A DNA stretch of 64,000 bases from Chryseobacterium salivictor (lineage in GTDB: Bacteria; Bacteroidota; Bacteroidia; Flavobacteriales; Weeksellaceae): contig NZ_CP037954.1 in NCBI RefSeq assembly GCF_004359195.1, positions 1,426,001-1,490,000 of the forward strand. Reading direction: 5' to 3'. Positions 26,086 to 51,989 of this stretch are shown in pieces; positions within the stretch are counted from its first letter, which is position 1; every line of letters starts with the position of its first letter. Below the pieces are notes generated by a model. It was not told the origin of the DNA. It saw only the letters and a list, made by a program, of their open reading frames with translations, and ran no database searches. A program made the translations under genes and the position numbers.

Positions 26086-26124
26086 AATTCACGACTCTTC
26101 CTCCGAAAGCGTTTAATAATAATA

Positions 26125-26259
26125 CTTTCAGTAAGGTCTCCTGACTTTCACAAAACTGCACCTTCCCGATTGCTCAGTGGTTGTATCGCAGTTTCACTAA
26201 TGGTGATTTACAGTTGCGGGGACAGTTTGTGATTCGCACACAATTCCCTTTTCTAAAAG
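26125..26259 (-). promoter_or_regulatory. Cobalamin riboswitch
   Basis: On the minus strand the aptamer shows the conserved core: GGGAAT ... GTGCGAATCAC ... ACTGTCCCCGCAACTGTAA, a GGTGCAGTTTTG arm and the B12 box AGTCAGGAGACCT (about 26134-26146). P1 forms from CTTTTAG (26259-26253) and CTGAAAG (26131-26125). It senses adenosylcobalamin or a related cobamide and represses by termination. Confidence 0.93.
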
Positions 26260-26264
26260 CAGGG

Positions 26265-26272
26265 CAAAGGTA
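26265..26272 (-). promoter_or_regulatory. -7 box (TACCTTTG) of the riboswitch-btuB transcript
   Basis: Minus-strand TACCTTTG just before the aptamer, in the 50-bp gap after the ppk1 stop. Confidence 0.55.
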
Positions 26273-26322
26273 TTGTTTATTTTTTATACCACGAAAACTT
26301 CTGAACATTCAGATTCTTATCC

Positions 26323-41906: not shown

Positions 41907-41994
41907 TACGATGGAGCGCAGCGCTTAATTTCCGCCATTGAAGCTAAATTAAAGCGTAACTCACATTATTTATTAACCGACTAAATTGATAAAG

Positions 41995-43269
41995 ATGAGT
42001 TCAAAAGTAAATTCCTTATTGGCAAGAAATACGGAAAATGCTGCAAAAGCAATCGGTTCCTACTCGCAAACGGTAGCCTTCTCCCATTACAATAACCTGT
42101 CGGCCCAATTGCCGGTGGATCCGAAATCAGGTGCATTGGTATCCGGCGGTATCAGGGAGCAGGCAGAACAGTGCTTCAAAAACATCAAGGCCGTTGTAGA
42201 CAGTATCGGCCATGTGATGAGCGATGTTATAAGAATCACTGTATTCGTAACCGCCATCAAAGATGCTGATGCTGTAGACGAAGTTTATAAAACATTCTTC
42301 CCAACCTATGTTCCGACAAGGACGACAGTGGCCGTGGCAGCCTTACCGATGAATGCGCTGGTCCAGATTGAAGCTCTTATTTCGAACGGCGAAGGTACCA
42401 TTCCAGACGCACCACAATCCGGCGATCTTATAAAACTGACCAATAATACGCCCAATGCGCCCGTAAGTACTTTATCTGCGCAGGCGGTCGCTTTCTCTCA
42501 CTACAATAACCTTTCAGCTCAGTTACCAGTCGATCCGAAATCGGGCAGATTGGTGGCTGGCGGTGTAAAAGAGCAGACGACCCAGTGCCTGAAAAATATC
42601 AAGGCGATTTTAGAAAGTATCGATGTCCCTTTTGACGATATTGTCAAAATTAATATCTTCCTTAAAAACCTCGCAGATATTGATGCCGTAAACGAAGTGT
42701 ACTCCACATTTTTCCCAGACTCTGCGATTGCCAGAACTGTAGGGTATGTTCCTGCACGCACAACAGTTGCCGCTTCAGCCTTACCGATGGATGCCCTGAT
42801 CCAGATTGAAGCAGTGGTGTCACACGGAGACGGTACACCTCCGCAAGCCGTAGAGCACAGGCATGGAATCGTTATTTGGGCAAATAACACTCAAAATGCA
42901 CCTGAATGTTCTCTGTGTACACAAACCGTAGCTTTTTCTCATTACAATCATCTTTCAGCGCAACTGCCTTTGGATGCGAAAACGGGTGAACTGGTTGCCG
43001 GTGGTATAAGAGAACAGACGGAACAGTGCTTGAAAAACATCAAGGCCATTGTCGAAAGCATCAGCCACGTTATGGAAGATGTCGTTAAAGTCAATATCTT
43101 TGTTAAAAATATTGCAGATATGGATGCCGTAGACGAAGTTTACAAAAAATTCTTCCCTGGCGGTATTCCTGCAAGAAGAACAGTGGGTGTCTCCGCTTTA
43201 CAGAAAGATGCTTTGATCCAGATTGATGCAGTTGTTGCCAACGCAGAAGGAACCCCTCCAAAAGCATAA
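41995..43269 (+). CDS. Three tandem RidA (YjgF/YER057c/UK114) domains in one protein
   Basis: 424 residues from ATG 41995 (the frame from 41986 begins with TTG). Three repeats of about 130-140 residues each start with QTVAFSHYNNLSAQLPVD or a close variant, continue GGIREQAEQCFKNIKAVV and end in a VPTRTTVAVAALPMNALVQIE-type motif. The RidA arginine of P-x-R is present in each domain, so all may be competent for enamine/imine hydrolysis. Family RidA proteins are trimers of single domains; this chain could be a covalent pseudotrimer. No signal peptide. It lies between the long direct repeats. Confidence 0.88.
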   Translation: MSSKVNSLLARNTENAAKAIGSYSQTVAFSHYNNLSAQLPVDPKSGALVSGGIREQAEQCFKNIKAVVDSIGHVMSDVIRITVFVTAIKDADAVDEVYKTFFPTYVPTRTTVAVAALPMNALVQIEALISNGEGTIPDAPQSGDLIKLTNNTPNAPVSTLSAQAVAFSHYNNLSAQLPVDPKSGRLVAGGVKEQTTQCLKNIKAILESIDVPFDDIVKINIFLKNLADIDAVNEVYSTFFPDSAIARTVGYVPARTTVAASALPMDALIQIEAVVSHGDGTPPQAVEHRHGIVIWANNTQNAPECSLCTQTVAFSHYNHLSAQLPLDAKTGELVAGGIREQTEQCLKNIKAIVESISHVMEDVVKVNIFVKNIADMDAVDEVYKKFFPGGIPARRTVGVSALQKDALIQIDAVVANAEGTPPKA

Positions 43270-43882: not shown

Positions 43883-44277
43883 ATGAACGGGCCTTGAAGT
43901 GTACCTTGAGTTCGGGGTTTTCACCTAAAGACCACTCACTATCTAAGATTTCACGGTGCAAAGGTTTTTTAACAAAAAGTCCATGGCCACCGCAGATTTT
44001 CATCGTGCCCGTGACGGGATTCAGCCGTTTCCTGAGTGTCCTGTACTGTTCTGTTTCTATTGAAATCCAGGCCGCGCAATTGCCGTGGTTCCTCCCACTA
44101 CTGTACGATTGCACCTTCAACGTTTTTAAATTGTTAATCTGATGGCTGTTTGATAATAGTATCCATGCGCAAGGTTGCTCACGGTTTACCGCACGACTCC
44201 ATCGTGGGATCAAATCCGAACCTGGTAAGGGAACTCAGTTATAGATTGTTTCGCTTGACGCGCACTTTTTATCACAA

Positions 44278-44428
44278 AACAGTATTTTAAAAAAAATCCC
44301 GGCTGAAAAGCGAATAACGGACTGTTCTATTTCCTACACCAATTTCTTTCCGCCGGAAACGGCCGGATTTGCCGAAAACGACCAAATCTGCCGATCTCTT
44401 TTTTAATGCTTTCTCATGCTTTATCGTG
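44278..44428 (+). repeat. Long diverged direct repeat, right copy
   Basis: Same order as 41549-41679 (AACAGTATTTTAAAA, CCCGGCTGAAAA, TTGCCGAAAACGACC, GCCGATCTC, TTTAATGCTTTCTCATGCTT) with extra internal sequence. Its end runs directly into the 11-bp array. Confidence 0.65.
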
Positions 44429-44481
44429 GGGGATTCCTGGGGGATGCCAAGGGGATGACTTTGGGAGGCACTTCGGGTATG
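44427..44481. repeat. Degenerate array, about five units of 11 bp (TGGGGGATGCC)
   Basis: TGGGGGATTCC, TGGGGGATGCC, AAGGGGATGAC, TTTGGGAGGCA, CTTCGGGTATG; same 11-bp period as the arrays at 41 kb but a different unit. Confidence 0.7.
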
Positions 44482-44748
44482 CTCAGTGTGACCCGTCCTA
44501 AAATAAGGATACAGATTACTCAATAAATTCTGATATAACTATACCCTTATAAATGATCATCCTGAATGAACTATACCGTTGTATTTCTATAGTTAAAGTT
44601 GTTATTATAGTTTTCCCATCTCCTGTTTAATTTTCCAGATTTTAGATGTGCCTGCATTGGGGTTGCATCATCACGACTGGCATTGGGTCGCAACTCGTTA
44701 TAGAACTTAGTACTCTGACTTATTTATTGAAATCCAAGTTTTGAGACA

Positions 44749-44880
44749 AAAAAAAGAGCCCACGCCGTTGTATATACTCTTCAGTATTTAGTGAGTGTTC
44801 ATGACCTCACCCTACGGGTTTACAAGCACCCTCGTTATTTGTTCAGCTATCCAATGATCCATTCGATCCCAGCTTTTTCG
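44749..44880 (-). ncRNA. Guide-RNA-like scaffold copy 3, tail GGCGTGGGCTC
   Basis: Read on the minus strand, a scaffold (44880 to 44767) matching copies 1 and 2 ends in GTATATACAAC and is followed by the tail GGCGTGGGCTC and T8. Scaffold stems are kept: GGGTG/ACCC, GTGAG/CTCAC and ATACT GAAG AGTAT. It carries with it the 3' 270 bp of a Cas12f-like gene (44847-45119). Confidence 0.65.
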
Positions 44881-45119
44881 GTTTTGTATTTTATTTTGGT
44901 CTGCAATTCATAATAACTCCAGTTGCGCAGCACCAATTCCTGTTCTTTTGCGATGCCAATTTTGTCTTCCTGATTTTTAAGAATAAGGGTGCCCGCTTGG
45001 TGCTGGATGCAGTAATCGATCAATTTTCTGCTATACAAATGAAGCCGGTGACTCGCATATCGGCTTTCCAGGTTATCTGTTGTATACAGCGCCTTTTGTT
45101 TCCGTTTCGCGCCATTTCC
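44847..45119 (-). pseudogene. 3' fragment of a second Cas12f-like gene
   Basis: About 90 codons, from GNGAKRKQKAL to KAGIEWIIG stop, are close to residues 275-364 of the full gene at 45525, with the same LILKNQEDKIG in place of the RuvC-II glutamate motif. Upstream in frame (45120-45242) the sequence is unrelated, so this is a partial duplication. Since the guide scaffold overlaps the gene's 3' end, the duplicated unit may have been selected for its RNA, not its protein. Confidence 0.75.
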
Positions 45120-45251
45120 CCGCTCTCCGAAGTCTCCGACTTCGGAGCAGATCAAACAAAGCCGAGCCATCTTTTTGGCACCGGTTATCTTGATCCAAAA
45201 GATCTGATTCCTGCCCACAACGGTGTAAACTAAGAAAGACACCCCAGATTC

Positions 45252-45290
45252 CTACCGATGGAAGTAGATTCCTGCCTTTGTTGCATAAAA
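45252..45290 (-). repeat. Degraded 5' end of a further scaffold unit
   Basis: CCGATGGAAGTAGATTCCTGCC then TTTGTTGCATAAAA parallels the start of copy 2 (45391-45427); the rest of this unit is lost. Confidence 0.5.
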
Positions 45291-45420
45291 AAGAAAACCG
45301 CTCAGTTGTATATACTATTCAGTATTTAGTGAGTGTTCAAGACCTCACCCTGCGGGTGTACAGGCACCCTCGTTATTTTTTTCCGCTATCCGATGATCAG
45401 TTCGATACCTGCCTTTGTTG
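45284..45420 (-). ncRNA. Guide-RNA-like scaffold copy 2, tail TGAGCGGTTTTC
   Basis: Complete scaffold on the minus strand (45420 to 45305) with stems GGGTG/CACCC (45354-45369), GTGAG/CTCAC (45329-45348) and ATACT GAAT AGTAT (45312-45325), ending TATACAAC, then tail TGAGCGGTTTTC and T6. It has only the last about 25 bases corresponding to the Cas12f-like coding end, so it is a stand-alone RNA unit, tandem with copy 1 at 137-bp spacing. Confidence 0.7.
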
Positions 45421-45554
45421 CATAAAAATGTGAGGAGCTCTGTTGTATATACTCTTGAGTATTTAGTGAGTGTTCATGACCTCACCCTGCGGATGTACAA
45501 GCACCCTCGTTATTTTTTTTTCAGCTATCCAATGATCAATTCGATACCTGCCTT
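45421..45554 (-). ncRNA. Guide-RNA-like scaffold copy 1, overlapping the 3' end of the Cas12f-like gene
   Basis: Begins within the last codons of the Cas12f-like gene (stop at 45525) and continues to GTATATACAAC (ends 45442), followed by tail AGAGCTCCTCACA and T5. This is the arrangement of TnpB omega RNAs, where scaffold overlaps the gene end and the guide lies 3'. The 3' hairpin ATACTC AA GAGTAT differs in loop and one pair from copies 2 and 3, while pairing is kept. Confidence 0.72.
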
Positions 45555-46619
45555 TTCTGCTTTGTATTTTATTTTGGTCTGCAATTCATAATAACTCCAG
45601 TTGCGAAGCACAAATTCCTGTTCTTTTGCAATTCCTATCTTGTCTTCCTGATCTTTCAGAATAAGGGTGCCCGCTTGCTGTTGAACGCAGAAATCGATCA
45701 ACTTCCTGCTGTAGAGATGAAGCCGATGACTTACATACCGACTTTCCCTATTTTCTGTTTTGTGCAGCGCCTTTTGTTTCCGTTTGGCACCATTTCCCGA
45801 ATGGCAGAAAGCAATACCGCTTTGAATTCTTTTCTGACTGGCTTGAATCGCCAACCTGCGGTATAAAAACTCCTCTTTTGAGCCAATATTCATCCGCACC
45901 TTATTGGCTTGTACCACGATCGGATGTTCCAAAGACAGGGAAGCTTCAGCAATAATTTCGGGTTTTAAAAGATGCTCCTCTTTTTCAAATTCAAATACGG
46001 CGAGCCAAAAGATTTTCCCTGCCTTCAACTGAATCTGTGAGGTACGAAGCGCGATGTCTTTTCTTAAGAGGCGTTCCAGGATCTCCCGCTTATCAGAAAA
46101 GTCTCTTCCTAAATACGTTTTTACCGGAATCGCAAGCATATTGAAGCAAAACGCTTTTTTATCCGGATCATACCTCATTTTGGTGGTGTATTTTACCGGA
46201 ACAGGAATGGGAATGTCCTTTTTAAAGTTTCTCAATGATTTTAAGCCTTTCCAGTAATCCACTTTGTCTTTAGAAAAGTTAGACTGTATCGTATTGTTCA
46301 GGCTTCCCAGAATATCGACGGGAATCTCCCCTTTGAAGCGGTCGAAAACCATGCGTGCGGTGGTGTGCGTTTTCGAACGGGTAAATATTCCCATTTCATC
46401 TTTTTTTTCATCAGCCAGCTTGTATTGGATTTCTTCTGTGAGGTAAAAGAAATCTTTGATCATTTCCTGCACATAGAGATGGGAAACAATTAAATTAGCC
46501 GCCCGGAAACAGCGGTTCTGATAGCGGTAGAGTTTTTCCCACATCTCTCTTTTTTCATCTGCAGGAACGTCGATCAGCAGCTGAATTTTTCGGGTCAATG
46601 TCATTGTGGATTTTTCCAT
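45525..46619 (-). CDS. Cas12f/TnpB-like protein with inactivated, truncated RuvC (dCas12f)
   Basis: 364 residues. The C-terminal third follows Cas12f closely: IGSKEEFLYRRLAIQAS (245-261), GNGAKRKQKA (275-284), HRLHLYSRKLIDF (298-310), LRNWSYYELQTKIKYKAEKAGI (338-359). The RuvC-I aspartate of the GIDLG motif is absent (residues 226-236 ASLSLEHPIVV) and the RuvC-II glutamate of the EDL motif is lysine (LILKDQE, K322). The protein ends at 364, just before the zinc finger and RuvC-III aspartate. It therefore should bind RNA and DNA but not cut. One base after the sigma-factor stop, so the two are coexpressed; its guide-like RNAs follow. Known precedents are nuclease-dead TnpB/Cas12f homologues used as RNA-guided transcription factors. 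Confidence 0.88.
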   Translation of the reverse strand: MEKSTMTLTRKIQLLIDVPADEKREMWEKLYRYQNRCFRAANLIVSHLYVQEMIKDFFYLTEEIQYKLADEKKDEMGIFTRSKTHTTARMVFDRFKGEIPVDILGSLNNTIQSNFSKDKVDYWKGLKSLRNFKKDIPIPVPVKYTTKMRYDPDKKAFCFNMLAIPVKTYLGRDFSDKREILERLLRKDIALRTSQIQLKAGKIFWLAVFEFEKEEHLLKPEIIAEASLSLEHPIVVQANKVRMNIGSKEEFLYRRLAIQASQKRIQSGIAFCHSGNGAKRKQKALHKTENRESRYVSHRLHLYSRKLIDFCVQQQAGTLILKDQEDKIGIAKEQEFVLRNWSYYELQTKIKYKAEKAGIELIIG

Positions 46620-46620
46620 G

Positions 46621-47436
46621 TCAAAGTTTTATTTCAGAAGTTTTTTGATTTTGTAGATATTGATAGGCATACAGAAATTCCCGATGGACTTCATTTTCAG
46701 GTAATTTAAGTTCTTTGGCAATCACCGCAAAAGAAGATTTCTGTTCAAACCTTCTTTTCATGATCTCCAATTGTTGACTGCTTAGTTTATCTAGTTGCTT
46801 TTCATTATCGAAAGCTTTACTCTGTGACTGTTCAAAAGAACTTCTATTCAAAATTTTCCGAAGATCATCGATGGCTCTGCTCACCTCATTGCTGATGCCT
46901 GTCACGCTGCTTCCCATTGCTTCTGCGATGGGCTTGTACTGAAAGCCATATTCAAGGCAAAGTTCAATCAGGTGTTTCCTTTTGGGGTTCAGTACGTTTA
47001 AAACCTTTTGTACTTCATCAAAATTTCTTTGATCAGCTTCCTGACTGAGAAGATGCTCTTTATCCTGCTGGGGATCGTAACCTGCGAGGTAATCTTGGTA
47101 ATTCTCATACCGTTCAAGGGAATTGATTAAACGGGAAAATTTATTCCTGGGCGCGTTAAAATAAGTTATACAGTCCCTCTTCAAAACAAACCGTAAAAAG
47201 CCAATGATATGATTCGGAGTTTCAATAGAGTCGCGGTGTAACCACAATTTAAGGAAGGTATCCTGAACAAGCGTTTCCACGACAAAATCATCATCAAGCA
47301 TTTGTTTTCCGATCCAGAAAAGCAATCTTTTGTAGCGTAAATGAATATGTTCCAGCGAGGCAGGATCGCCTTTTTTCAGCAGTTCGTACAACTGAAGATC
47401 GGTTAATTTCCGGGGCAATGAGTCTGTTGTTTTCAT
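46621..47436 (-). CDS. Sigma-70 family (ECF-like) RNA polymerase sigma factor partnered with dCas12f
   Basis: 271 residues: sigma region 2 (about 11-95; HIHLRYKRLLFWIGKQMLDD, ETLVQDTFLKLWLHRD), region 4 (about 145-198; LNPKRKHLIELCLEYGFQYK, AEAMGSSVTGISNEVSRAI), and an extra C-terminal helix-turn-helix-like segment (about 215-262; SSQQLEIMKRRFEQKSSFAVIAKELKLPENEV). No anti-sigma gene adjoins. Stop TGA, one base, then ATG of the Cas12f-like gene: a tightly coupled operon. The likely role is to bring RNA polymerase to sites chosen by the dCas12f guide RNA; the extra domain may contact dCas12f (inference). Confidence 0.87.
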   Translation of the reverse strand: MKTTDSLPRKLTDLQLYELLKKGDPASLEHIHLRYKRLLFWIGKQMLDDDFVVETLVQDTFLKLWLHRDSIETPNHIIGFLRFVLKRDCITYFNAPRNKFSRLINSLERYENYQDYLAGYDPQQDKEHLLSQEADQRNFDEVQKVLNVLNPKRKHLIELCLEYGFQYKPIAEAMGSSVTGISNEVSRAIDDLRKILNRSSFEQSQSKAFDNEKQLDKLSSQQLEIMKRRFEQKSSFAVIAKELKLPENEVHREFLYAYQYLQNQKTSEIKL

Positions 47437-47452
47437 AAGCAGCGTTTTTTAG

Positions 47453-47460
47453 CAAAATTA
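47453..47460 (-). promoter_or_regulatory. -7 box (TAATTTTG) of the sigma-dCas12f operon
   Basis: Minus-strand TAATTTTG, 16 bp before the ATG at 47436; TTG lies upstream with a long spacer (23 bp). It suggests basal transcription by the housekeeping sigma. Confidence 0.45.
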
Positions 47461-47561
47461 TTGCTGGAAGGAACTGCTTAAATCAATAAATGAATTCTAC
47501 TTTTAATGTGTAGCCTTATTTTTACTTTGACACAAAAGAAAAGCGTGGAACTCAACTTACA

Positions 47562-47669
47562 GCATTAGAGGCACTGGTATACCCGTGTACGATAAGTGAG
47601 CCCACGCCGTAGTCGTGGGCACATTTACTTATCTTCTCGTACACATAAAAATTACCAGTTTTCTAATGC
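47562..47669. repeat. 108-nt long hairpin (five stacked stems) upstream of the sigma gene
   Basis: Nested arms: GCATTAG/CTAATGC, ACTGGTA/TACCAGT, GTGTACGATAAGT/ACTTATC...TCGTACAC (4-nt bulge) and GCCCACG/CGTGGGC with loop CCGTAGT. About 34 pairs. It contains GAGCCCACGCCGT (47598-47610), which is identical to guide copy 3 plus the scaffold end. It could be a structured RNA, a transposon end or a target site. Confidence 0.7.
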
Positions 47670-47760
47670 GAGATTCTAAGCAATAGCTTCTATATTTTTT
47701 TGAACTATCGCAAAATTACCTTTAAAAGTAATTTGTTCCAAATATAATAAAAATAATTTA

Positions 47761-47782
47761 ATTACGGTCGAACGACCGTAAT
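47761..47782. promoter_or_regulatory. Perfect palindromic operator of the XRE-type regulator
   Basis: ATTACGGTCG AA CGACCGTAAT, 10-bp perfect arms, directly upstream of TATCTTTC (47796-47803) and the small HTH gene; expected autoregulatory site. Confidence 0.65.
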
Positions 47783-47812
47783 ATTTTAACAACTATATCT
47801 TTCTTTTGTTGT

Positions 47813-48046
47813 ATGATTGAGATCAACGAGAAAATATGTTCATACATAACTAAAAATTGGTTAATTCCTTGGCTTAAAGAAAATAAGTCACAGAACTCGT
47901 TTGCTAAAAATCATGATATTGAAGAAAGTACTGTAAGAAAAATTAAGAGCGACAATACTTATAGAATTCCTGTTGAAACACTTTACAGAATTTGCAAAGC
48001 AAGAAAACTCACTCTTGAACAATTTTTTAAACTTATAAATGAATAA
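47813..48046 (+). CDS. Small XRE-like helix-turn-helix regulator
   Basis: 77 residues: SQNSFAKNHDIEESTVRKIKSD forms the helix-turn-helix and PVETLYRICKARKLTLEQFF the following helices of a lambda-repressor-like domain. It has an operator palindrome 31 bp upstream and its own terminator. Such small regulators commonly precede restriction-modification or defence genes, and an hsdM remnant follows. Confidence 0.78.
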   Translation: MIEINEKICSYITKNWLIPWLKENKSQNSFAKNHDIEESTVRKIKSDNTYRIPVETLYRICKARKLTLEQFFKLINE

Positions 48047-48762: not shown

Positions 48763-50733
48763 ATGAGTACTCAATCGGTAGAAATTACAAGCTCCGGGAT
48801 AAAAAAAATACTTCAAAAATATACAGCAGAGAGAGCAATATCAGAATACATTTGGAATGGGTTTGATGCGAAAGCAACGGTAATAAAAGTAGATTTTGAG
48901 ATCGGAACTGCAGAATTTGATACTTACAGCTCTATCCGTATAAGTGATAATGGAGAAGGAATAATTTATGAAGATTTATCAGAAAGATTTAGAAAATTTC
49001 ACGAATCAAATAAAGCTGGATTAAGTAGTGATAGTTCTGATTTAACTAGAGGTAAAAACGGATATGGACGCTTTACCTTTCATAAGTTTGCAAGATTTGC
49101 CAAATGGTGTACAAAATATTCCAGAAATGAACATGCACTATATTCTTATGATATATTAATCAATAGCGATAATTTAAAAGAATATGATCCAAGTACTCCT
49201 ATTGTAGCTCAGGGTACAAGAGGAACGGTTGTGCAATTCACTGACATCAACTCTGAAATTTCTAGTGCTTTCATTACTGAAATATTAACACCATACTTAC
49301 GAGCAGAATTTGCGTGGTACTTGGAACTTAAAGAAGAAAATAAGATTTTTATAAACGGAAGAGAACTAGACTATTCTTCAATAATTGCTGAAAACGATAG
49401 TTTTCCACTTACTGTAAATTTAAAGAAAAGAAATATTCGATTTGAATGCAGATACATTCGTTGGACAAAAAAATTAAATGATGAATATTCTAGATTTTAT
49501 TTTTTAAACGAAAATCTTGAGTTAAAAAAAACAAAAACTACTTCATTAAACAAGAAAGGGGATGATTTCTGGCATAGTCTGTTGATTGTGAGTGACTTCT
49601 TTAACGATGAAAATATTGATGAAGAAGAAGTGAATGAAAGCACTCCACAACTTTTTACTCAAAGCGAAGAAAATAAAATTTTAAAAGAATTAATCAAGGA
49701 TTTAGATAATTACTTAAAAACAAGAAGACGACCTTTTCTTAAAAAACAAGCTGAGAAACTTATTGACAAATATGAAGAGGAAAAGGTTTTCCCCGATTTT
49801 GGCAATAATGAATGGGACATTGCCCGTAAGGAGGGTCTTGAGAATTTAGTTAGAGAGATTTACGAAGTCGAACCTGCTATTTTTATGAAACTAAATAAAG
49901 AGCAAAAAAGAATATTTCTTGAATTGCTTAATCTCGTGATGGACAGTTCTGAAAGCGAAAATTTATTAAAAATTATAGGTGCGGTTGTTGACCTTGACAC
50001 GAATGATCGTGAGGAATTTGCTAAACTTTTAGAGGATACAAAATTAAAATATGTCATTACTACAATTAATATAATTAAAAACAGACTTCTTATTCTCGAA
50101 AATCTTAAACAGCTTGTATTTAATGATGAGTTAAAAGCAAATGAAAGAGACCATCTACAAAAATATATTGAAAAACACTACTGGATTTTTGGTGAAGAAT
50201 ATAAAATGGTATGTGCAGAAGAAGTAAAATTTGAGGAAGCACTAAAAAGATATATTTATCTATTAAGAGGGGTTTCAGAAAAACAATTTATTAGTCATCC
50301 TCATAAGTACAAAGAAATGGATTTGTTTTTAGCAGGAACAGATTTTAGAGATGGAAAACCGCATAATGTTATTGTTGAAATAAAAAATCCTACAACAATA
50401 AAAAAACTTGGAGACAAGGAAGTAGGACAAATTAAAAGATATATTGATGTTATTTTGGAACAGGACGAATTTAACGACCATAACGAGTTTTGGTCTTTTT
50501 ATTTAATTGGGCAAGACTATGATAGTATTGTGCAAAGGGACATCAGAAATATCGAAACAGGACTAATTAGAGAATCAAACAATCATTGTGTTTATGTCAA
50601 AAAATGGAGTGAAATAATTAATGAAGTGGAACGAAGACTTAAGTATTTACTTGAAAAACTCAAAATTGAAAGAAAATATTTGGCAAAAGAAAATACTTTA
50701 CAAAATATTCTTGAAGTTGAACGAACTGTATAA
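48763..50733 (+). CDS. GHKL ATPase fused to a Shedu-like PD-(D/E)XK nuclease domain (candidate phage defence)
   Basis: 656 residues. The N-terminus is an HSP90/MORC-like ATPase: E28 and N32-x-x-D35 in SEYIWNGFDAKA, DNGEGI at 62-67 and GKNGYGRFTF at 97-106. A long helical middle region follows. The C-terminal part has HYWIFGEEY and a nuclease-type core with D520 (KEMDLFLAG), E539 and K541 (VIVEIKNP), the D...ExK pattern of Shedu/DUF4263 domains. It sits alone between a broken hsdM and an IS3 element. Defence function is inferred from domains and context. Confidence 0.8.
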   Translation: MSTQSVEITSSGIKKILQKYTAERAISEYIWNGFDAKATVIKVDFEIGTAEFDTYSSIRISDNGEGIIYEDLSERFRKFHESNKAGLSSDSSDLTRGKNGYGRFTFHKFARFAKWCTKYSRNEHALYSYDILINSDNLKEYDPSTPIVAQGTRGTVVQFTDINSEISSAFITEILTPYLRAEFAWYLELKEENKIFINGRELDYSSIIAENDSFPLTVNLKKRNIRFECRYIRWTKKLNDEYSRFYFLNENLELKKTKTTSLNKKGDDFWHSLLIVSDFFNDENIDEEEVNESTPQLFTQSEENKILKELIKDLDNYLKTRRRPFLKKQAEKLIDKYEEEKVFPDFGNNEWDIARKEGLENLVREIYEVEPAIFMKLNKEQKRIFLELLNLVMDSSESENLLKIIGAVVDLDTNDREEFAKLLEDTKLKYVITTINIIKNRLLILENLKQLVFNDELKANERDHLQKYIEKHYWIFGEEYKMVCAEEVKFEEALKRYIYLLRGVSEKQFISHPHKYKEMDLFLAGTDFRDGKPHNVIVEIKNPTTIKKLGDKEVGQIKRYIDVILEQDEFNDHNEFWSFYLIGQDYDSIVQRDIRNIETGLIRESNNHCVYVKKWSEIINEVERRLKYLLEKLKIERKYLAKENTLQNILEVERTV

Positions 50734-50802: not shown

Positions 50803-51069
50803 ATGAAAAACAGTAAATTTTCAGAAGTTCAGATCATCAAGATATTATCTGAACAAAATCAGGGAAAAACGGTAAATGAGATTTGCCGGGAGCATGGAAT
50901 TAGCCAGCCAACCTTTTACAAGTGGAAGAGCAAATATGGTGGATTGGATGTTCAGCAACTTTCAAAAATGAAAGAGATGGAAAAGCAACTTTCGCAATAT
51001 AAAAAGATCGTAGCTGAGCAAACTTTGGAGATTGTCGTCTTAAAAGATGTGATCGAAAAAAAGCTCTAA
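50803..51069 (+). CDS. IS3 transposase OrfA
   Basis: 88 residues with the IS3 OrfA helix-turn-helix (TVNEICREHGISQPTFYKWKSKYG) and a leucine-zipper-type tail. Near its end the codons GAA AAA AAG lie in an A7G run; a -1 slip there joins OrfA to OrfB as EKKALTPCEKREL, the usual way to make the active transposase. Confidence 0.92.
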   Translation: MKNSKFSEVQIIKILSEQNQGKTVNEICREHGISQPTFYKWKSKYGGLDVQQLSKMKEMEKQLSQYKKIVAEQTLEIVVLKDVIEKKL

Positions 51070-51089
51070 CGCCTTGTGAGAAGCGTGAG

Positions 51090-51989
51090 TTGGTGGATTA
51101 TTCGAAAGAAATCCATAACATGAGTTTGCGCAAGGCGTGCAAAGTGTTCAGTTTAAGAAGTTCAGTTTATTATTATCGTCAGGTATTTAAAAGTTCAGAT
51201 GATGAAATCCGTGCAGAACTTATTTTACTTGCAGATTCTAATCAAACGTGGGGCTTTTGGATGATGCACAATCGGTTGAAAAACTTAGGCTTTGGATGGA
51301 ATCACAAAAGGGTTTATCGGATTTATAAGTCGATGAGATTAAATTTGCGAAGTAAAAGGAAAAAGCGGCTTCCAGCACGGATAAAACAACCACTGGTTCG
51401 CCCCATCTATCCGAACGTTACTTGGAGCATGGATTTTATGCACGACAGTTTGGAAAATGGCAAAAGCGTGAGAACCCTTAATATCATTGACGATTTTAAC
51501 AGAGAGATTTTAAACATCACTATTGACAGCAGCTTGCCCTCTGCAAAAGTAATCTCGCAATTGGAACAATTAATTGAATGGCGGGGAAAACCTGAAAAAA
51601 TAAGAGTGGACAACGGACCGGAATTTATTGCAGAAAAAATGAAAGATTATTGCAACAAAGAGAATATCGAACTAGCCTTCATTCAACTAGGGAAACCTAC
51701 ACAAAACTCATTGATTGAGAGATTTAACAGAACATTCCGGACAGAGTTTTTAAGTGTTTACCTCTTTGAGAACATCAAACAAATGAGAAATTATGCAGAA
51801 ATATGGATGTGGATGTACAATAATGAGAGACCGCATAGTGCGTTACAATACCTTACACCACGGGATTTTTTATTGAAATATGGAAAACTCAATCAAAATA
51901 GCGCAAATGAGTTTCCCACATTCCAACAAAATTTCAACAACGACAACAATAAAATATTATCAAAAAACTCTACTTTTGAGTGTGCCTAA
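51090..51989 (+). CDS. IS3 transposase OrfB (DDE integrase core)
   Basis: Its own first start is a TTG at 51090; translation most likely comes from the OrfA -1 frameshift. 299 residues: HTH_21-type N-terminus and the rve core with D in TWSMDFMHDSL, D in RVDNGPEF and E in NSLIERFNRTFRTEFL, so the DDE triad is complete. The C-terminus NNERPHSALQYLTPRDFL is typical. The element looks intact. Confidence 0.92.
   Translation: MVDYSKEIHNMSLRKACKVFSLRSSVYYYRQVFKSSDDEIRAELILLADSNQTWGFWMMHNRLKNLGFGWNHKRVYRIYKSMRLNLRSKRKKRLPARIKQPLVRPIYPNVTWSMDFMHDSLENGKSVRTLNIIDDFNREILNITIDSSLPSAKVISQLEQLIEWRGKPEKIRVDNGPEFIAEKMKDYCNKENIELAFIQLGKPTQNSLIERFNRTFRTEFLSVYLFENIKQMRNYAEIWMWMYNNERPHSALQYLTPRDFLLKYGKLNQNSANEFPTFQQNFNNDNNKILSKNSTFECA

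Follow-up and report, generated by a model that had tools for sequence, protein, structure and literature searches.

In the window (the whole stretch of 64,000 nucleotides of Chryseobacterium salivictor DNA that was analysed), a gene encoding a nuclease-dead Cas12f-like protein (dCas12f) lies directly 3' of a sigma factor gene on the same strand (-), with one base between the two. The features of the locus, in window coordinates, are the following:

44729-44844 (-), guide-RNA-like copy 3: scaffold, guide g3 GGCGTGGGCTC at 44766-44756, then a U-run
44850-45131 (-), C-terminal fragment of dCas12f that covers residues 271-364 at 84% identity and precedes guide-RNA-like copy 3
45267-45382 (-), guide-RNA-like copy 2, from the repeat family and the scaffold alignment, with guide g2 TGAGCGGTTTTC from 45304 down
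45404-45519 (-), guide-RNA-like copy 1, from the repeat family and the scaffold alignment, with guide g1 AGAGCTCCTCACATT from 45441 down
45525-46619 (-), nuclease-dead Cas12f-like gene, 364 aa (ORF list; PDB 9n9c, E 1.2e-157)
46621-47436 (-), ECF-type sigma factor gene, 271 aa (ORF list; domain search; PDB 9n9q_C 'RpoE', E 2.4e-81)
47534-47680 (-), leader A, a structured element with covariation that lies between the promoter and the sigma gene (covariance model match, alignment)
47598-47608 (-), g3 target GGCGTGGGCTC, in the apical right arm of leader A, the 5' half of a terminator-like stem
47711-47741 (-), promoter match of Bacteroidota type (TTG-N-TAATTTTG), directed into leader A
47761-47782 (no strand), inverted repeat ATTACGGTCG-AA-CGACCGTAAT by the promoter, read from the sequence
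47813-48046 (+), divergent HTH_26 (Cro/C1-type) regulator, 77 aa (Pfam HTH_26)

The limits of the two open reading frames and their one-base spacing, as given in a preliminary description of this DNA, were both reproduced from the ORF list. That description had also claimed that the RuvC-I aspartate is gone and that lysine replaces the RuvC-II glutamate, which is confirmed by the alignment to active Cas12f 9nzo (Ser227 and Lys322), as is the early stop before the zinc finger and RuvC-III, the last residue being 364. Both substitutions are widespread among the 54 aligned sequences, window included: the RuvC-I position is S in 49 (C, Y, T and F once each, and one gap), and the RuvC-II position is K in 50 (M twice, L once, and one gap). 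The dCas12f relatives comprise 57 distinct other loci, chiefly of Chryseobacterium and its kin, and the sigma gene is present in 56 of them, the exception (L048) starting at a contig edge; the spacing, read by script, is one base in 47 of 53 loci including the window, with 12 bases in one and five undetermined. The pairing of sigma factor and dCas12f and the loss of the catalytic residues are thus not due to chance.

Over its whole length (residues 1-364) the protein aligns with the 'Nuclease-deactivated Cas12f' of PDB 9n9c (E 1.2e-157), a chain of 365 residues that is likewise devoid of RuvC-III and whose entry also holds an RpoE chain, and active Cas12f/TnpB structures align partially (e.g. 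residues 83-361 with 9nzo). The NCBIfam model guided_TnpB scores 61.8 bits, below its cut-off of 100, and all Pfam matches are below their cut-offs, as expected for a truncated relative. In the sigma factor, regions 2 and 4 are followed by a second region-4-like stretch at residues 215-252; the extra C-terminal segment proposed earlier is therefore real, and 9n9q_C aligns through it (17-262). Since 9n9c and the RpoE chain 9n9q_C are the best solved matches, the assignment to the sigma-associated dCas12f family holds, although the accompanying suggestion that the locus is perhaps divergent does not, for it is not especially so.

A divergent ORF of 65-150 aa is found, by a loose criterion, upstream of sigma in 56 of the 57 sigma loci. 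The inverted repeat at 47761-47782 is likely the operator of the HTH protein, and among the relatives the repeat differs along with the HTH type (by eye), which looks like modular swapping of repressor and operator to the left of leader A. Small divergent HTH-like genes of several types were also seen by eye to the left of leader A, with differing inverted repeats nearby. A phage-defence function was considered for the cargo gene present behind the divergent HTH ORF in 25 of 54 loci. Of these left-hand genes, 17/25 matched PADLOC (E<=1e-10), but so did 10/20 control genes located to the right of the guide RNA (20 sampled of the 50 available); with matches on both sides the whole neighbourhood appears island-like, so that no specific link to defence is claimed, and the window's own cargo (48763-50733) gave no PADLOC match. 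Elsewhere in the window, we observed by eye an IS3-type transposase ORF pair at 50803-51989 (+), the same transposase being found near an HTH-leader B-susC locus (L080:14936-15805), as well as a 427-aa ORF with three tandem RidA/YjgF-like repeats at 41986-43269 (+); a cobalamin riboswitch (Rfam RF00174, E 9e-16) lies at 26114-26307 (-).

Guide-RNA-like copies and their genomic matches

Three direct repeats of ~116 nt each, located 3' of the dCas12f gene, align with the scaffold found behind dcas12f in relatives, an alignment of 30 sequences in which the evidence for a scaffold is sequence conservation. After the ACAAC that closes the scaffold comes a short variable part, the guide, and then usually a U-run. 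The three guides of the window are all different. No CRISPR repeat-spacer array was found in 44000-48000, where these three scaffold copies are the sole multi-copy repeat of that kind. The position of copy 3 behind the dCas12f fragment suggests that the 3' end of the gene was duplicated together with its guide RNA and that the array expanded in this way. The tandem copies, the fragment and leader A were absent from the preliminary description and are new here. Another short dCas12f remnant (residues 72-109, 68% identical) lies at G000:C1:652352-652465 (L065), and a Salegentibacter locus (L053, 5797-6504) has four guide-RNA-like copies with an identical guide in all. The core of g3, GGCGTGGG[CT][CT], is found behind the dCas12f gene in 53 of the 57 relatives; the other four have GCGTGGG (L051 and L053), a variant (L048), or a copy interrupted within the scaffold (L026).

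Each of the three guides has matches elsewhere in the C. salivictor genome or locus. For g3 these are the palindrome of leader A, 5' of the sigma gene, and a second site at genome position 1671293 (L058) that lies before a thioredoxin-like gene with a TonB receptor behind it. Fifteen nucleotides of g1 recur 262 nt before a susC start (3036083; L079) and again at 1671031 (L058), a given 15-mer being expected by chance 0.006 times in the genome (arithmetic, at equal base frequencies); its 11-nt core was found once more, within an ORF (L076). Ten 11-nt matches of g2 exist elsewhere in the genome. Eight fall within long ORFs and a ninth at the end of an ORF; the tenth is in a second leader, leader B, where the segment GAGCGGTTTTC matches the hairpin 1.5 kb upstream of the second susC-susD-peptidase S9 operon (L080) and, by eye, adjacent to a divergent gene of HTH-like type. 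In the leaders, the matching sequence is that of the coding strand of the operon that follows, and a G precedes the matched site if the guide is counted from two bases after ACAAC, the border between scaffold and guide being assumed. Comparable matches occur in relatives: in G105 the corresponding guide GGGGCGGTTTTC matches the leader B of its own genome over 12 nt, and in Salegentibacter a 16-nt guide, GCGTGGGCTCTCTTAT, is identical, by eye, to part of a leader A that precedes a SusC-like gene. No exact match in trans was found for the first guide of L001, three wobble-compatible sites being present, and for the two extra guides of G048 no leader B was found in that genome. The matching of guide-RNA-like copies to operon-upstream sites lends further support to the RNA-guided recruitment of RNA polymerase that had been predicted from the gene pair.

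The fit between guides and leaders was compared within and between genomes as the contiguous match over the first 16 nt, allowing rU.dG and rG.dT, for 37 trans leaders in 19 dCas12f genomes. The mean own-genome match was 13.82 nt, against 12.13 nt when the guides were exchanged at random between genomes, and 0/3000 shuffles attained the own-genome mean; for the 15 genomes with a single guide type the figures were 13.60 and 11.98 nt (5/3000 shuffles). Under strict identity, the means for the same 37 leaders and 19 genomes were 9.46 and 9.03 nt (172/3000), and three sets of non-pairing substitutions gave no comparable gain (145, 309 and 180 of 3000). L118, in which the regex found no arm, was dropped at first, as were the three leaders that belong to G125 and G092. 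Adding these two genomes, with L118 and L149 dropped (39 leaders, 21 genomes), gave 13.50 against 12.04 nt with wobble (1/3000) and 9.32 against 8.98 nt under strict identity (249/3000). Guides of the GGCGTGGG type were used, with one of the three G095 guides unread, and these shuffles ignore the kinship of the genomes. The own-genome advantage is clear only with wobble and weak otherwise, so the guides seem to be tuned to the leaders of their own genome through wobble pairs, which suggests how a single short guide could reach a diverging set of operons.

Structured leaders at the matched sites

Leader A offers two mutually exclusive pairings. In the backward one, a hairpin, 98.9% of cells are paired, with 151 double-sided changes against 42 expected; in the forward one, between the right arm and a segment further downstream, 94.8% of cells are paired, against 27-57% when slid, with 18 double-sided changes against 4.6 expected. 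The sample behind these counts is 82 model matches, 80 of them distinct; their alignment followed the hairpin model and is therefore biased towards the hairpin. The many G.U pairs on the sense strand place the leader RNA on that strand. The energy of the forward duplex was equalled by at most 1/100 shuffles in 72 of 78 leader A arms (three of 81 copies, having no arm by regex, were left out) and in 27 of 29 leader B copies, and a U-rich stretch follows the forward partner in all 107 copies (78 of leader A and 29 of leader B). For leader B, whose stem is bulged, the ungapped pairing test failed and this gapped duplex test was used instead. The guided arms can thus pair forward before a U-run, so that g3 and g2 are identical to the 5' halves of terminator-like stems in two different leaders, both of which appear attenuator-like; the g1 site gave no convincing terminator in the duplex test. 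Rfam 15 gave no match near the operon up to E 2 and, at gathering cut-offs over seven loci, a single one, to DUF805b RNA in L079, away from any leader.

Of the 58 leader A loci that have a long gene to the right, 54 show a promoter of the form TTG-N17-23-TAnnTTTG that reads into the leader, where 1.1 would be expected from simple shuffles, and -7 boxes between leader A and the gene are rare (3/58 loci against 11 expected). A full promoter match was also found upstream of leader B in 27 of 29 loci, a count given here without a shuffle control. Leader B is present in 19 of 148 genomes, near susC-type genes; the copy matched by g2 is at L080:12160-12400 (-), other copies being L211-L239. One genus also has it upstream of sigma-dCas12f, as do, by eye, L022, L023, L036 and L057.

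Counting the window, 42 of 57 dCas12f operons have leader A 5' of sigma; a promoter match accompanies 41 of these copies and 34 scored positive for a terminator. In 33 of 41, the operon guide pairs with its own leader A over 11 nt when wobble is allowed. Outside dCas12f operons, 81 copies were analysed (80 selected among the matches listed, plus L058), 41 of them in dCas12f-bearing genomes and 40 in others. The first two genes to their right include a SusC-like gene in 53/81 and a thioredoxin-like gene in 13/81 (either in 56, neither in 25), and a divergent small ORF is found on the left in 72/81. A divergent variant of leader A (L120, L184-L188) precedes by ~190 nt a short regulator-like ORF (METGTAQQKITLAF... 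and similar), so that the gene behind this variant is of another class.

By covariance model, leader A occurs in 84 of 148 genomes sampled from the family, in up to eight copies per genome, and the model also matches in genomes of Mesonia, Salegentibacter and Leeuwenhoekiella, to which L051, L053 and L048 led. The idea that leader A is exclusive to genomes with dCas12f was rejected, since the latter is found in only 32 of the 148, one of which (G119) has a fragment only. The two are nevertheless associated: leader A away from dCas12f was found in 29/32 dCas12f genomes against 53/116 others (Fisher 2.4e-6, uncorrected for kinship), in a tally made by hand among the matches listed in which unlisted places were counted as away from dCas12f. 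We also rejected the idea that dCas12f preserves the target strand, because the guided arm GGCGTGGGC is commoner in genomes without dCas12f (33/40 copies) than among the trans leaders of those with it (22/41). Leader A, multi-copy and present in many genomes without dCas12f, is exemplified by L151-L190. Retention of both leader A and its guided arm without dCas12f points to another role, the conservation not being explained by dCas12f; judged by this retention, leader A clearly functions in such genomes, which raises the question of what it does in the many that lack dCas12f.

Guided recruitment and its alternatives

We consider it probable, at about 0.7, that the system is an RNA-guided activator that would bring RNA polymerase to guide-matched sites before SusC-type operons and before its own operon. 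The dCas12f protein with its guide RNA would open the DNA at the matched strand, and the sigma factor would recruit the polymerase, with a start that we place downstream of that strand. The predicted regulon here would comprise the own operon, the susC-susD-peptidase S9 operons of L079 and L080, and the thioredoxin-like gene and TonB receptor of L058, and the self-target on the own leader A would give positive feedback.

The positions of the targets could have a further consequence. The first half of the terminator stem would be missing from a guided transcript; the guided route would thereby escape attenuation, and the upstream promoter, probably under the HTH repressor, would stay subject to it. 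It is possible, although we advance it tentatively, that the 5' strand of the leader terminators serves in this way as an address, with the start inside the terminator, and that short, wobble-tolerant, U-tailed guides together with the three-guide array drive a family of uptake operons and the system itself. The recruitment step follows the known family and the attenuator bypass is our own inference; the backward hairpin of leader A may be too stable for the terminator to form.

It could also be the case that dCas12f bound at the leader represses, in the manner of TldR, by blocking polymerase coming from the upstream promoter, the sigma factor then having a separate role. With a full promoter match before the target in 54/58 loci, a bound protein would indeed obstruct polymerase, but the tight operon with sigma across the clade and the RpoE chain included in the solved dCas12f entry make this reading unlikely. 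Antitermination at the RNA level, with the guide pairing to the 3' half of the terminator in the nascent leader RNA and dCas12f acting as an RNA chaperone, would suit the location of leader A behind a promoter and its sense-strand G.U pairs, and both the conserved 3' segment (e.g. GAGTTCCACGCC) and the target strand of the DNA are complementary to the guide. Such a process needs no sigma factor, yet one accompanies dCas12f in 56/57 loci, and the dCas12f-sigma family is a DNA-targeting one, so we regard RNA-level antitermination as quite improbable. That the guide-like sequence is a mere trace left when the cassette inserted into leader A, like a transposon flank and with no guiding, is very improbable: homology of paralogous copies often stops at the guide and U-run, and the same 11 nt are present both before sigma and at the right end, but leader A is intact upstream of sigma, the differing g1 and g2 match other susC-upstream sites, the guides fit the leaders of their own genome with wobble, and no Y1 transposase was noticed among the ORFs listed beside the operon. 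Activation through guided recruitment of sigma factor and polymerase is the most economical mechanism. A sigma factor with guide RNAs is now tied to a testable regulon and to two attenuator-looking leader families without a match in Rfam 15, and, should the bypass be true, guide RNAs would override transcription attenuation in bacteria.

Relation to known systems

Members of the dCas12f-sigmaE family form a DNA-targeting complex, with the guide RNA encoded downstream of the gene and targets upstream of SusC-type genes. A preprint on this system reportedly describes a 5'-G target-adjacent motif, SusCD targets and a start ~46 bp downstream, the distance on which the bypass idea relies. We take PDB entries 9n9c, 9n9m, 9n9o and 9n9q to be the dCas12f-sigmaE RNA-guided transcription system. 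The present locus resembles it in the match over the full length of the protein, the same truncation, with loss of the RuvC acidic residues and of the C-terminal part of the nuclease, and an adjacent RpoE-homologous ECF sigma factor with an extra C-terminal region-4-like segment. It also has a conserved scaffold downstream of the gene, recognised at the sequence level, and guides that match the coding strand in front of a gene, with targets before SusC-type genes as in that family. In a literature search by record, no paper on dCas12f with a sigma factor was found, and 'Cas12f' does not occur in the TldR paper PMC13418256. The locus is of the known dCas12f-sigmaE kind, and its guide array and type of target were not found described. 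It differs from that system in the three-guide array with a dCas12f fragment, in the single guide core throughout the clade, in the short guide, usually followed by a U-run, and in the target, the 5' half of a stem that looks like an attenuator, in the own leader too.

TldR proteins are defined as stand-alone dead TnpB proteins without a sigma partner. A dead RuvC and a guide RNA encoded beside the gene are shared with them, but here there is a sigma partner, and the targets lie in leaders downstream of a promoter instead of in an occluded promoter; membership in TldR was rejected, given the sigma gene in 56/57 loci and dCas12f as the best solved match. With the Cas12f/TnpB nucleases (9nzo, 7wju, 8dzj and others) the protein shares a region of the fold (e.g. 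83-361 with 9nzo), whereas the catalytic residues and the C-terminal RuvC-III and zinc finger are missing; a place among CRISPR-Cas12f was rejected on the state of the nuclease active site (Ser227, Lys322, no RuvC-III). Finally, the leaders are like transcription attenuators in having two exclusive pairings, a U-run and an upstream promoter, and unlike them in matching nothing in Rfam 15 in the stretches searched and in a 5' terminator strand that would double as the address of a guide RNA.
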